Shown here piece after piece: positions 42,428-51,037 of a DNA stretch of 64,000 nt. The position numbers and the translations under genes were made by a program. The notes beneath the pieces were generated by a model that ran no database searches, had not been told where the DNA came from, and was given only the letters and a program-made list of their open reading frames with translations. Every line of letters begins with the position of its first letter. Position 1 is the stretch's first letter. Origin of the DNA: Acidimicrobiia bacterium (lineage in GTDB: Bacteria > Actinomycetota > Acidimicrobiia > Spongiisociales > UBA5794); assembly GCA_026985095.1 (NCBI GenBank), contig JALSQW010000012.1:177810-241809 (forward strand), written 5' to 3'.

Positions 42428-45400
42428 TCAGTCGTCTCTCGGCTCGAGGACGTAGACGTGCCAGGCGCGCAGGAGCGCCGCGTCGTCGGCGTCGACCACG
42501 GTGCCGTCGACCACGTCCCGCACGCTCGTGGGTCCGTCGAGCCGCTGGTCGAGATCCTCGAAGGCGAACACGACGACGCCGGCGGTGGCGGGATCGGTCC
42601 AGGCGACTCCCACCCACCGATCGTCGACCACCAGCACGGACCGTCGCCGCATGCGGTCCCGCACGACGTCGTAGGCCTCGTTGATCCGGACGAACCGGTC
42701 CCGATCGACCTCCGTGAGCGCCTCGACCTCGTCCATGTTGGCCACGTTGACGAGACCGCCGGAGGCGAGGGCACGGACGTAGACGTCCACGTCGAGGGCC
42801 ACGCCGGCGCCCATCCGATACAGGAGGTACTCGTGGCCGCGGATCCGCTCCAGCTCCGCCCGCTGGACGGCGTCGGGCTCGGGCGGGCCCGAGTAGGTCT
42901 CGTAGTCTCCGTATGCATCGGGCCGTCCCAGAGGGCCCAGGCCCTCGATGACGATCTGGGTCAGGCCCATCTTCCCGAAGGCTCGCTGCAGGGCGACCGT
43001 CTCGGCGAGCTGTGGACGGGGACGCTCGTCGGCGTGGTCGGTCGGCACGGCGATGTCGACCCACGAGTCCATCCACACCCCGTCGAAGGGGATCCGTCGC
43101 CGGAGCGCACCGAGCCGATCGACGACGTACCGTCGATAGGGCGGGCCTTTGTCGACCACGACGAGGTCGCCCCACCCACCGTCGTCCGGTGTGCCGTCGG
43201 CCTTCCAGACGATCCAGTCGGGATGGTCCTCGAACAGCGGCGAGACGATGGAGTAGGCGGAGGGGTACCACAAGGTGACCGCGATCCCCCGAGCGTGGGC
43301 GGCCTCGACGAGGCGGCCGAGGCCCTCCTCTCCGCCGCGGAGGTCCGAGACGACGAGCTGGCGTGGCGCGTGGAACGAGCTGGCCATGTCGGGATCGTCC
43401 GCATCGGACATCCAGGGTGCCTGGATGATGACGTTCCGGAGGCCGGCCGCGGCGATCCGGTCGAGTTCGGTGTCGGCGAACCGGTCGAACCACCCACCGC
43501 CGGTGGTGGACCGATCGCTGGCGGCGACCCGTTGGAGGGCAGCGAGCTGCTCTTCCTCGGTGGGTTGGTTCCACACGACGGTCGGCAGCGGCATGCTGTC
43601 GGGAACCCCGGTAGCCGCCAGGTAGCCCTGCCGGAGGTCCTCGTGGATCTCGGCCCACAGGTCGACCGCCTGCCATGGGTCGGCGACGCCCCGAGGAGCG
43701 CCGAACCATTCGAGGGCGGCGGTCGAACCCTCGGCGTCCACTGGGATCTCGAACCACTGGACGTCGCGGCCGTCGGCGACCGTACTCGAGACGGTGGCCC
43801 AGGTCGGTTCGTCGAAGGCGGCGACGACGGTCCGGCCGGGTGAGGTGCGGAACAGGAACGACTGGCTCTCCCCGAACCACGCCACCGCGGGTCGGCGGGT
43901 CGGCGCGTCGATCACGCTGCCGACCTCGTGCAGGACGCGGAAGTACTGGTGCAGCTCCCGGTCGGCGAGGTCTCCCAGGAGCGGGAACTCGGCGACGACC
44001 GCGGTGACGTCGGGAGCATCGTCCACCGCCCAGCGCATGGCGAGCCCGGCGAACTGCTCGCCGGCGAGGGTGCGTGTGGTCGGGGTCACGATCCACTGGA
44101 GGGTGCCGCCCCCGGCGATCTCCCAGGTGAGCGTGACGGTCGACCCGTCGAGGGTGGCGTCGGTGAAGACGAGCTCGGAGATCGTCGACACGGTCATCGA
44201 TCCTCGGGGTTCCCACCGCCGACCGGCCGCGAAGAAGGCGTCCCGATAGGTGATCCAGTCGAATCCGTCACCGGGCGGCCGCTCCCCGGCGGTGCGGAGG
44301 AGCTTCGGGAGACCGAGGGCGCCGCCGGGTGGGGCGACCAGAACAGGCACCCCGTCGACGGCGAGCTCGGCGATGCCGGTCGGCTCGCCGTCGGCGAAGG
44401 CGACGCGCATCACGACGCCGGAGGGGAAGGCGATCTCGAGGCCCGTCGGATCCCTGCGGATGGTCGCCTCGTCGGGGACGACCACCGGTTCTCGGGTGAC
44501 GGTGAGGTCGGGGGCATCCCACATGAGCATCGCCCTGGGGGCCGACCCTGCGGCATCGAACCGGAGGGATCGCTCACCGGCATCGAAGCGGGTGAGCGGG
44601 ACGAGATCGGCGGCATCCACCTCGACGGTGAGGTGCATCTCCTCGAACGCGATGGGGGCACCGTCGGGCCCGGTGACGGCGATACACAGCGTCTCGACAC
44701 CTGCGAGCTCCGCCGGAAGGGAGACCTCGGGGAGGGCTCGTCCGTCGCCGTCGGCCCGCCACACCGTGACCGGATCACCGTCGACCGCCGACAGGGAGAT
44801 CTCGGTTCCGGCGGGTACGTCGAGGACGGTGGGCACCGACCCTTCGGGATCGCGCAGCGACACCGCGGTGACGGGACGCCCGATCCGGAGGCATCCCCGA
44901 AGGGAGCCGAGAGCGTAGAAGGAGACCCGGCCCTCGTCGTCGCGTAAGAACAGCATCTCGTCGCCGGTCGCCCACGAGACCACCTTGGCCGGGTCGGGAT
45001 CGTCCGCGAGGCGATCGATCTCCAACGAGCCTTCCTCGGCGTCCAGGATCTCCCAGTCGGGGACGCGGCCCCGATAGCGGGGGTCGAACAGGTCCCACAG
45101 GGTGAGGACACCCACCCCGTCGGGACGGACGACGAAGGCGGCCTCGGGCGGGAGCTCGTCCACGAGGAGGCGACCGTCGAGGGTGGGAGCCGCGAGCCGG
45201 TCGACGGCGAGGATCCCCAGCGACGTGTCCGTGGCCTGGGTGGCGACCAGGGACACGTCGGCCGGTGCCGTATCCAGGTCGATCGAGCGGGGCCCGGCGG
45301 CCGGCACCGCGTCGTCCCACGCCGGCCGCCAGGCGGCCGCGTCGACGGTGACGGCGGGTCGATCCGGTTCGGGGAGGTCGCTGCCGGTGCTGGGGCCGCA

Positions 45401-45451
45401 GCTCGCCGCCACCACGGCGAGGAGGACCACGAGGGCCGTTGAGACGTTCAT
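42428..45451 (-). CDS. Large lipoprotein with glycosidase-like (GH31/GH36-type) domain
   Basis: A 1007-residue exported lipoprotein: signal peptide with lipobox VVAASC (Cys about 17). The N-terminal half is a long beta-rich region. The C-terminal part from about residue 620 is a TIM-barrel glycosidase-like domain (VIIQAPWMSDADD, ARGIAVTLWYPSAYSIVSPLFEDHPDWIVWKADGTPDDGG, FDGVWMDSWVDIAVPTDHAD) followed by a small beta domain (YVRALASGG…VVVFAFEDL). The Asp in GVWMDSW is a candidate nucleophile. The fold suggests an alpha-galactosidase/alpha-glucosidase-type enzyme at the cell surface. The substrate is unknown, and the very long N-terminal half is unusual. Confidence 0.65.
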   Translation of the reverse strand: MNVSTALVVLLAVVAASCGPSTGSDLPEPDRPAVTVDAAAWRPAWDDAVPAAGPRSIDLDTAPADVSLVATQATDTSLGILAVDRLAAPTLDGRLLVDELPPEAAFVVRPDGVGVLTLWDLFDPRYRGRVPDWEILDAEEGSLEIDRLADDPDPAKVVSWATGDEMLFLRDDEGRVSFYALGSLRGCLRIGRPVTAVSLRDPEGSVPTVLDVPAGTEISLSAVDGDPVTVWRADGDGRALPEVSLPAELAGVETLCIAVTGPDGAPIAFEEMHLTVEVDAADLVPLTRFDAGERSLRFDAAGSAPRAMLMWDAPDLTVTREPVVVPDEATIRRDPTGLEIAFPSGVVMRVAFADGEPTGIAELAVDGVPVLVAPPGGALGLPKLLRTAGERPPGDGFDWITYRDAFFAAGRRWEPRGSMTVSTISELVFTDATLDGSTVTLTWEIAGGGTLQWIVTPTTRTLAGEQFAGLAMRWAVDDAPDVTAVVAEFPLLGDLADRELHQYFRVLHEVGSVIDAPTRRPAVAWFGESQSFLFRTSPGRTVVAAFDEPTWATVSSTVADGRDVQWFEIPVDAEGSTAALEWFGAPRGVADPWQAVDLWAEIHEDLRQGYLAATGVPDSMPLPTVVWNQPTEEEQLAALQRVAASDRSTTGGGWFDRFADTELDRIAAAGLRNVIIQAPWMSDADDPDMASSFHAPRQLVVSDLRGGEEGLGRLVEAAHARGIAVTLWYPSAYSIVSPLFEDHPDWIVWKADGTPDDGGWGDLVVVDKGPPYRRYVVDRLGALRRRIPFDGVWMDSWVDIAVPTDHADERPRPQLAETVALQRAFGKMGLTQIVIEGLGPLGRPDAYGDYETYSGPPEPDAVQRAELERIRGHEYLLYRMGAGVALDVDVYVRALASGGLVNVANMDEVEALTEVDRDRFVRINEAYDVVRDRMRRRSVLVVDDRWVGVAWTDPATAGVVVFAFEDLDQRLDGPTSVRDVVDGTVVDADDAALLRAWHVYVLEPRDD

Positions 45452-45524: not shown

Positions 45525-45730
45525 AACCCAGGGTTCAGGACACCCCGAAAGGGGGTCGACCAACCCAGGGTTCAGGACACCCCGAAAGGGGGTCGACCAA
45601 CCCAGGGTTCAGGACACCCCGAAAAGGGGGTCGACCAACCCAGGGTTCAGGACACCCCGAAAAGGGGTTCGCCAACCCAGGGTTCAGGACACCCCGAAAG
45701 GGGGTTCGCCAACCCAGGGTTCAGGACACC
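45525..45730. repeat. Six-copy tandem repeat with two hairpins per unit
   Basis: The 20-base core AACCCAGGGTTCAGGACACC occurs at 45525, 45562, 45599, 45637, 45674 and 45711, a period of 37 or 38 bp. The linkers are near-identical (CCGAAAGGGGGTCGACC and variants). Within each unit GAACCCAGGGTTC or AACCCAGGGTT is a palindrome, and CCCC-GAAA-GGGG forms a stem with a GNRA tetraloop. It lies between two minus-strand genes, 73 bp before the glycosidase lipoprotein start and 27 bp after the stop of the gene at 45758. Confidence 0.92.
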
Positions 45731-45757: not shown

Positions 45758-46702
45758 CTATCCGGGTTCGTCCGGGGACGCGCCCTCTCTGTCGAGCGGC
45801 TCGCTCCATCCCTCCGGCAGCATGGGGTCCGCGGGCCCATCCAGCGGCGACGCGGGCTGGTAGTCGATGTCGATCCCACCCGTGCCCGAGGCCGTTCGCA
45901 GGCCGCCGCCGGCTACGCCTCGGGCCCGAACCACGAAGAACATTGCCGCCAACACGATGACGCCTCCCAGCAGAACCCACACGCCGAGGGGCAACCCGCC
46001 GCCGGTCTCCGCGACAGCGGAGGGCGCCTCCTCGGAGGCGCCGGCCGTCGTCACCTCGGTGGCCCCCGACCCGGTCGTGGTCGTCGCGGTCGTCGTCGCG
46101 GTGGTCGACGTGGTCGTCGCGGCGGCGACGGTGGGCTCCGCCGACGCTGAACCGTACGTCTCGCCTCCGGTGTCGACCTCGACGCTCACCGCGTCCGGCA
46201 CCGGCGGCGGCGGGCCATCGTGGACGACGACCGGGAGTCCGGTGACGAACCCCTCCCCGGTCGCCGACCATCCGGCCTCCCCCGCCGCGACCGCGGTTGG
46301 GTCGAACAGCTCCGGCGGGTAGACGGCGGTGACCGACGTCACTCCTCCGTCGGGGCTCAACCCGAGGACGACCCGGATCGACTCGGGAACCGGCGGCCCG
46401 TCGATGGTCCAGAACACGTCGAGGGGACCCGTCGGGGGCTCGGTGACGGTCCATACGACGGGAGCGACATCACGGAAGCTCACCCCGGCGCCGGCGAAAC
46501 CGAAGGATCCGGTCACATGGACGAAGGCCGAGTCTCCGGTGGTGACCGCCTCGGGGAACACCGAGACGACGAAAATGCCGTCGTCGTTGACGTAGATGTC
46601 GACCCGCTTCGGGGGCGCCTGAGCGAAGACCGGGGCTCCCGCCACCAACAGGGCCAGGACGATGGCGGCGATCACCGCCACGAACCGTGCGCTGAATCTC
46701 AT
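45758..46702 (-). CDS. Exported membrane-anchored protein with Thr-rich linker, unknown
   Basis: A 314-residue protein. A signal peptide (FVAVIAAIVLALLVAGAPVFAQA) is followed by about 170 residues of beta-type sequence, a Thr/Ala-rich linker (TTTSTTATTTATTTT) at about 190-215, a membrane segment (GVWVLLGGVIVLAAMFFVVRA, about 240-260) and a short cytoplasmic tail. The layout is like the larger protein at 56773. AGGAGG lies four bases before the ATG at 46702. No domain recognised. Confidence 0.65.
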   Translation of the reverse strand: MRFSARFVAVIAAIVLALLVAGAPVFAQAPPKRVDIYVNDDGIFVVSVFPEAVTTGDSAFVHVTGSFGFAGAGVSFRDVAPVVWTVTEPPTGPLDVFWTIDGPPVPESIRVVLGLSPDGGVTSVTAVYPPELFDPTAVAAGEAGWSATGEGFVTGLPVVVHDGPPPPVPDAVSVEVDTGGETYGSASAEPTVAAATTTSTTATTTATTTTGSGATEVTTAGASEEAPSAVAETGGGLPLGVWVLLGGVIVLAAMFFVVRARGVAGGGLRTASGTGGIDIDYQPASPLDGPADPMLPEGWSEPLDREGASPDEPG

Positions 46703-46853
46703 ACCTCCTCCTCGATCCAACGAACGACTCCCACAATGTACCGAAAACGGATCCGCCGTTCAGCTCGTCCCGGTCGGGATGAGACCGCCGAGCGGATCCC
46801 AGGCGGGAGTAGCATCGTGGCCTCGGGTGAGGAAGCCACGGGAGGACGACGGC

Positions 46854-50557: not shown

Positions 50558-51037
50558 TCACGTGGAGGCGGGTCCGCCGGCCTGTGGGATCTGGATGGTC
50601 GACCCCGGTCGCGATTCGAGAACGAGCTGGGTGCGCACGCCGGCCACCGAGTCGACCGCACCGATCAGGTCGAGCCGCTCGCGAAGGTCGTCGACGTCGG
50701 CACACACGATCTTCAACAGGAAGCAGTCGTCTCCGGTGAGACGGTGCAGTTCGGTAGCGACGCCCAGTTCGCTGAGCGCGTCGATCGTCGTACCCGGTGC
50801 GGTGGGTTTGGACTCGTCGACGAACACGAACGCCACGATCGACAGTCCGACGGCGTCGAGATCGATGGAGGCACTCGACCGTCGGAGGACGCCGCGCTCG
50901 GTCAACGCCTTCACCCGAGCCGACACGGCCGATGGTGCCAACCCCAGCTTCCGTCCGATCTCGGCGCGTGACGATGTGGCATCGTCGACCAGCAGTTGAA
51001 GAATCCGTCGGTCCGTTGAGTCGATCATCGTCGCCAT
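50558..51037 (-). CDS. Lrp/AsnC-family regulator
   Basis: A 159-residue regulator. The helix-turn-helix is in IDSTDRRILQLLVDDATSSRAEIGRKLGLAPSAVSARVKALTERGVLRRSSA. The RAM domain includes VATELHRLTGDDCFLLKIVC. GGAGGT precedes the ATG. It heads the operon with three RraA-like genes and is divergent from the hydrolase at 51100 (62-bp gap), so it probably controls both directions in response to an amino acid. Confidence 0.88.
   Translation of the reverse strand: MATMIDSTDRRILQLLVDDATSSRAEIGRKLGLAPSAVSARVKALTERGVLRRSSASIDLDAVGLSIVAFVFVDESKPTAPGTTIDALSELGVATELHRLTGDDCFLLKIVCADVDDLRERLDLIGAVDSVAGVRTQLVLESRPGSTIQIPQAGGPAST

Follow-up and report, generated by a model that had tools for sequence, protein, structure and literature searches.

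The window analysed here, a stretch of 64,000 nucleotides, belongs to an Acidimicrobiia genome of 2.93 Mb in 70 contigs (hereafter G000). Between two minus-strand genes it holds a tandem array in which six copies of the core AACCCAGGGTT span positions 45525-45730, with spacings of 37, 37, 38, 37 and 37 bp; the six matches compare with 0.26 expected by chance in the window. Five units are complete, and the sixth consists of its first 20 bp only. The coordinates, the 37/38-bp period and the copy number given in the preliminary description of this DNA all hold. The locus is laid out as follows, the cores and linkers being listed without strand.

45525..45535, core 1, AACCCAGGGTT
45536..45561, linker 1, 26 nt, with the inner stem CCCC-GAAA-GGGG
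45562..45572, core 2
45573..45598, linker 2, 26 nt, same sequence as linker 1
45599..45609, core 3
45610..45636, linker 3, 27 nt, loop GAAAA
45637..45647, core 4
45648..45673, linker 4, 26 nt, loop GAAAA, end TTCGCC
45674..45684, core 5
45685..45710, linker 5, 26 nt
45711..45721, core 6
45722..45730, truncated linker CAGGACACC, which closes the array
45758..46720, minus strand, preceding gene, exported Thr-rich protein; 36 nt from its stop codon to core 6
42428..45451, minus strand, following gene, GHL10-like lipoprotein (glycosidase; its GHL10 match scores under Pfam's own cut-off); 73 nt from core 1 to its ATG

The sister species G001 yielded neither the glycosidase of this locus nor a match to a query with the flank. 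A 50% homologue in G016 has no core close by. Elsewhere in the window, three successive RraA-like genes (PF03737; 48545-50540, minus strand) with overlapping ends form an unusual triple of paralogues, and a gene for an Lrp/AsnC-type regulator (50558-51037) is located upstream of it.

The core is an exact dyad around a centre of one nucleotide, and such a palindrome therefore cannot form a hairpin with itself. In a single strand, GGGTT of one core is able to pair with AACCC of the following core, enclosing the linker. Two hairpins per unit had been proposed for the array; the CCCC...GGGG stem within the linker is real, but the hairpin assigned to the core falls away. In the CCCC-GAAA-GGGG motif the stem stands, but GNRA loops are not conserved: of the five linkers of the window array two carry GAAAA instead, and the loops of arrays elsewhere read TCCA, TGAA, TAAA or AAAA. 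Both strands of the window array fold better than shuffled sequences (z -4.1 and -5.6). The linkers of G000 are 93% identical within arrays and differ between arrays. Since they are near-identical repeats and not unique spacers, a CRISPR array is ruled out, in agreement with the preliminary description. In Rfam no match exceeded the gathering score, and a single sub-threshold match is attributable to chance. A phage or plasmid origin was likewise rejected, as the array has no match there. Eight pattern matches in IMG/VR (L156-L163) belong to repeats that are not related: their linkers differ, and so, for the most part, does their base composition; the contigs concerned, which carry pairs of AACCCAGGGTT, range in GC from 0.33 to 0.70, and several have one repeat region in common.

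The array is one of many. The genome-wide search that the preliminary description had called for recovered 159 exact cores in G000, against 0 for the reversed pattern, and 112 pairs of cores with 15-45 nt between them (reversed control, 0). They make up about 42 arrays, each of 2-6 cores with a period of 36 or 37. Several contigs of G000 and G001 end in or beside arrays (e.g. L164, L170, L191, L197, L200, L204), and arrays may therefore hold more copies than were counted. The core is present across many families of one Acidimicrobiia order, in numbers that are high but patchy: 154 in G001, 75 in G026, 74 in G006, 78 in G023 and 76 in G133, with 0-3 in many other genomes. The same unevenness is seen within genera, as one species of g10 carries 75 cores and the rest of that genus 0-2, and counts of 74-78 stand against 2-15 in g6. 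Paired cores were absent from the sampled genomes of the other orders of the class and of the other classes of the phylum. In a scan of GTDB contigs, the matches listed were mainly from Acidimicrobiia. Also among the matches listed are L072, L073, L088, L095, L097 and L125, labelled Prevotellaceae, Bacteroides, Cellulomonadaceae, Planctomycetota and Propionibacteriaceae; these core pairs may reflect chance, mis-binning or other repeats.

The form of the element in relatives illuminates how the window array is built. In G006 most cores occur as inverted pairs 95/96 bp apart, which delimit an inverted repeat of ~107 bp with a core at each end. Each half consists of AACCCAGGGTT, 24 nt of linker and RGCCCGCGGTT as a half-changed core; beyond a short centre the mirror image follows. 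Arrays of G001 with steps of 36+62 show the same 98-bp outline, and the arrays of G000 correspond to one arm copied in tandem. Single arms exist as well: at L262:2063-2890 two adjacent genes each have an arm behind them, and in the second case the gene's TGA runs across the beginning of the half-core GAACCGCGGGCC. The existence of the ~107-bp form in a relative, together with the ~42 arrays of G000, bears out the earlier suggestion that a dispersed repeat has expanded here; the window array is accordingly one arm of a palindromic family of REP/MITE-like type, expanded in tandem. Other arrangements were also encountered. At L178:4554-4584 a lone core lies within a perfect 31-bp palindrome (GGGCTCCCCGAACCCAGGGTTCGGGGAGCCC), which may be the element in its minimal form. 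In loci of G040 (family f5), for example L237, cores are paired only 12 bp apart (AACCCTGGGTTAAACCCAGGGTT) with periods of 48-80 bp, a different architecture built on the same core. The element at L266:1980-2135 is flanked by an extra inverted repeat of ~27 bp beside an N run, perhaps a fold-back artefact of assembly.

Genes on the retrieved loci were called with a purpose-made codon-usage caller, whose stops are exact and whose starts are approximate (that of the glycosidase was overshot). No array of at least two cores lies inside a gene in G000, G001, G026 or G040. Compared with arrays placed randomly between the genes of these loci, those of G000 are strongly concentrated within 30 nt of a stop codon (23/38 versus 6.0 expected, p=2e-4), as are those of G001 (9/14; 2.6 expected), G026 (11/17; 3.0) and G006 (10/18; 3.9). 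Medians of the distance to the closest stop codon are 9-13 nt, and divergent intergenic regions are avoided in G000 (3 arrays versus 12.2 expected). At 36 nt the window array lies farther out than most. The gene families adjoining arrays mostly differ between genera, and no fixed tie to particular families became clear when genera were compared. This preference for 3' ends, beside unrelated neighbours, assigns the window array to the 3' end of the preceding gene and not to the promoter of the glycosidase, so that the link to this surface enzyme made in the preliminary description is not supported.

Proximity to stop codons and the strong folding of the array RNA would fit an element of mRNA 3' ends, whose transcribed hairpins might terminate or protect transcripts or stall ribosomes near the stop codon. 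A precedent exists in E. coli, where REPs less than 16 nt from the stop codon reduce translation by ribosome stalling, according to PMC12306157. However, an intrinsic terminator was rejected, as no T-run follows any stem and 0 terminator-like sites were detected on both strands between 45300 and 46000. When 45 linkers were read in the sense orientation of the adjacent gene, 23 G-U pairs stood against 37 A-C mismatches (p=0.97 for a G-U excess), and selection on the sense RNA is therefore not apparent. The transcript barrier of multiple hairpins considered earlier finds no support in either result. Moreover, the window array is too far from the stop codon for an effect of the E. coli type, and some sister species lack the element behind the same gene. 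A role at mRNA 3' ends thus appears improbable, and we take structure, if it is relevant at all, to act at the DNA level.

That the linkers are palindromic themselves is evident from a comparison of one 25-nt linker per genome in 17 genomes, which have on average 7.94 complementary positions of 12 versus 4.69 for swapped halves (p=1e-4); this comparison of halves was made across genomes, and within one genome arrays face both ways. In an alignment of the stem GGGTT-linker-AACCC, comprising 17 sequences that were hand-picked as examples from the retrieved loci with two from some genomes, 85.5% of the cells are paired. Covariation in this alignment reaches 0.479, as opposed to 0.174 in shuffled alignments (0/500) and 0.08-0.14 in slid controls, and all 10 of the 10 variable pairs have changes on both sides. 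The hairpin is not kept everywhere, as the outer linker halves in G000 and G001 are no longer complementary; in G000 linkers pairing is left only at the base and in the inner CCCC/GGGG stem. Template switching could be an alternative source of the linker covariation. Taken further, the arrays would be neutral relics without function, quasi-palindromes maintained by template switching and homogenised by slippage. Switching from arm to arm would indeed yield covariation without a G-U bias, and the arrays look locally re-expanded (within-array identity 0.92-0.96). Yet such a process leaves unexplained the exact core over many families, the preference for stop codons and the intact cores at orthologous sites described below, and we regard a purely neutral origin as very improbable.

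Comparison of close relatives separates the fate of the core from that of the linkers. Many arrays of G000 and G001 occupy the same sites, with flanks that are mostly 75-94% identical and alignable up to ~5-20 bp from many arrays. At these shared sites the core is exact and the linkers have changed. For the 22 arrays common to both species, linkers match at best with an identity of 0.61-0.79 (mean 0.71), and the closest linker from a different array within one genome has a mean identity of 0.94; 41/42 arrays of G000 and 21/21 of G001 are closer to their own genome than to the sister. Linkers that resemble their own genome more than the orthologous site indicate concerted evolution. Copy number, for which a comparison between strains had been recommended, differs at most of the sites shared by these two species. 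In a second pair, 11 sites of G006 were located in G023 through the flanking coding DNA, without use of the core. All 21 cores present there are exact, between flanks about 77-91% identical; no other congener has an exact core at these sites. Some congeners have an element with a changed core (L298), and at L268 the element is absent in three species, where insertion and loss are not separable. Empty sites thus exist among congeners, their junctions being too diverged for a target-site duplication to be read.

These data also bear on the possibility that the repeats are binding arrays of a conserved host protein, such as a nucleoid organiser, an insulator or a regulator, with a homodimer on each core, occupancy raised by the tandem arrangement and linkers serving as spacers. 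The core would suit such a protein, being an exact dyad and the sole invariant part over many families; all 21 cores at orthologous sites of G006 and G023 are intact, complete cores stand at the beginnings and ends of arrays, and sites are common to species. On the other hand, core counts are very patchy within genera g10 and g6, neighbouring genes are not conserved between genera, and covarying palindromes would be unnecessary for pure spacers. The spacings of 12, 26, 36, 37 and 48 bp do not fit helical phasing either. On balance this function is conceivable but rather unlikely. The proposal of a protein-binding array in the preliminary description is nevertheless plausible as far as the core goes, since no other part is invariant; a binder was not found.

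Among known classes, the family is close to the REP/BIME elements of enterobacteria and pseudomonads and the REPINs, which are many-copy extragenic palindromes occurring as singles, inverted pairs and ordered tandems, with many E. coli REPs located shortly behind stop codons (PMC3116915, PMC3733652). Shared traits are the dispersed extragenic palindromes in many copies, the inverted pairs of G006 and the ordered clusters of G000. In contrast to REP and REPIN, the elements described here have an exact 11-bp dyad core, covarying linkers and linkers that are rewritten genome-wide between sister species, and they lack a RAYT/Y1 transposase and a recurrent GTAG or CGTC tag. The Y1 HUH transposase domain PF01797 (RAYT) is absent from G000 and from 137/138 genomes of the order, with matches in control genomes; the family is therefore not a RAYT-REPIN system. 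The 7-mers beside the cores of G006 vary (CGCAGAG, CGCAGCG, CGCCCCG, CGTCACG and others), so that among the tags of the REP superfamily GTAG is not recurrent and CGTC occurs in a minority. Repeats of the CGTC type without a dedicated transposase are on record in PMC3733652.

MITEs offer a second parallel, as the ~107-bp form of G006 is dispersed, has identical inverted ends and varies in presence at one site between congeners. Neither a related transposase nor a target-site duplication was demonstrated, and, as a difference from MITEs, arms multiply in tandem in G000. The BOX elements of Streptococcus pneumoniae are modular and dispersed, with an inner module of variable copy number; set beside them by description only, the present family differs in that the repeated module bears its own palindromic core.

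In the open literature searched, the core was not found in such a context, and no Acidimicrobiia repeats described as tandem, intergenic and palindromic were found. The passages found in PMC3116915, PMC3733652 and PMC12306157 contain no description of an AACCCWGGGTT family. Palindrome counts for Acidimicrobium ferrooxidans are part of the RepRanger survey, and a term search of its main text gave no description of this family. Among the reports found, the AACCCWGGGTT family is without an earlier one, and it is a REP-type element in the broad sense.

The window array is probably best explained as one copy, expanded in tandem, of a palindromic DNA element that is dispersed in one Acidimicrobiia order and whose core would be recognised by a putative protein. 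Broadly defined, the element is a repetitive extragenic palindrome, with a basic unit of the invariant AACCCWGGGTT and a ~25-nt linker that is an inverted repeat in most genomes. Two arms in opposite orientation form the ~107-bp element (G006; 98-bp spacing in G001), and head-to-tail multiplication of one arm has given the 2-6 cores per array of G000. Local copy increase may proceed by slippage or unequal crossing-over, with conversion homogenising the loci. The element would be kept at the DNA level, its core being recognised by a conserved candidate protein either in the duplex, as a palindrome, or as the foot of a hairpin that is extruded or forms in a single strand. Some protein probably does recognise the core, since it is constant between distant relatives and all else is rewritten. 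Insertion at 3' ends might be favoured because it spares promoters and genes. Against the expansion of a dispersed element stands the fact that most sites are common to close species, so recent movement is not evident, and no mobilising enzyme or core-binding protein was found. An invariant core over families is unusual for a parasitic repeat and would better suit the site of a host protein. The exact core across families leans to such a conserved protein; the patchiness and the inverted-repeat form lean to a mobile element. As a tentative extension, AACCCWGGGTT may be the site of a putative order-conserved protein that binds or recombines DNA, and the arrays its chromosomal stations at gene ends, with an upkeep that is independent of RAYT and also rewrites the linkers genome-wide.

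For draft genomes of these bacteria, the repeat marks points where assemblies tend to break. The short median distance to the stop codon makes a translational effect of the E. coli type worth testing, even though the G-U comparison gives it no support. AACCCWGGGTT provides an exact bait sequence for seeking the putative binding protein. This order-wide family bears on how extragenic palindromes without RAYT spread and are maintained: with an 11-bp core that is fixed, stems that covary and, in sister species, orthologous sites whose linkers have changed in concert, recognition, mobility and conversion become separable for study.
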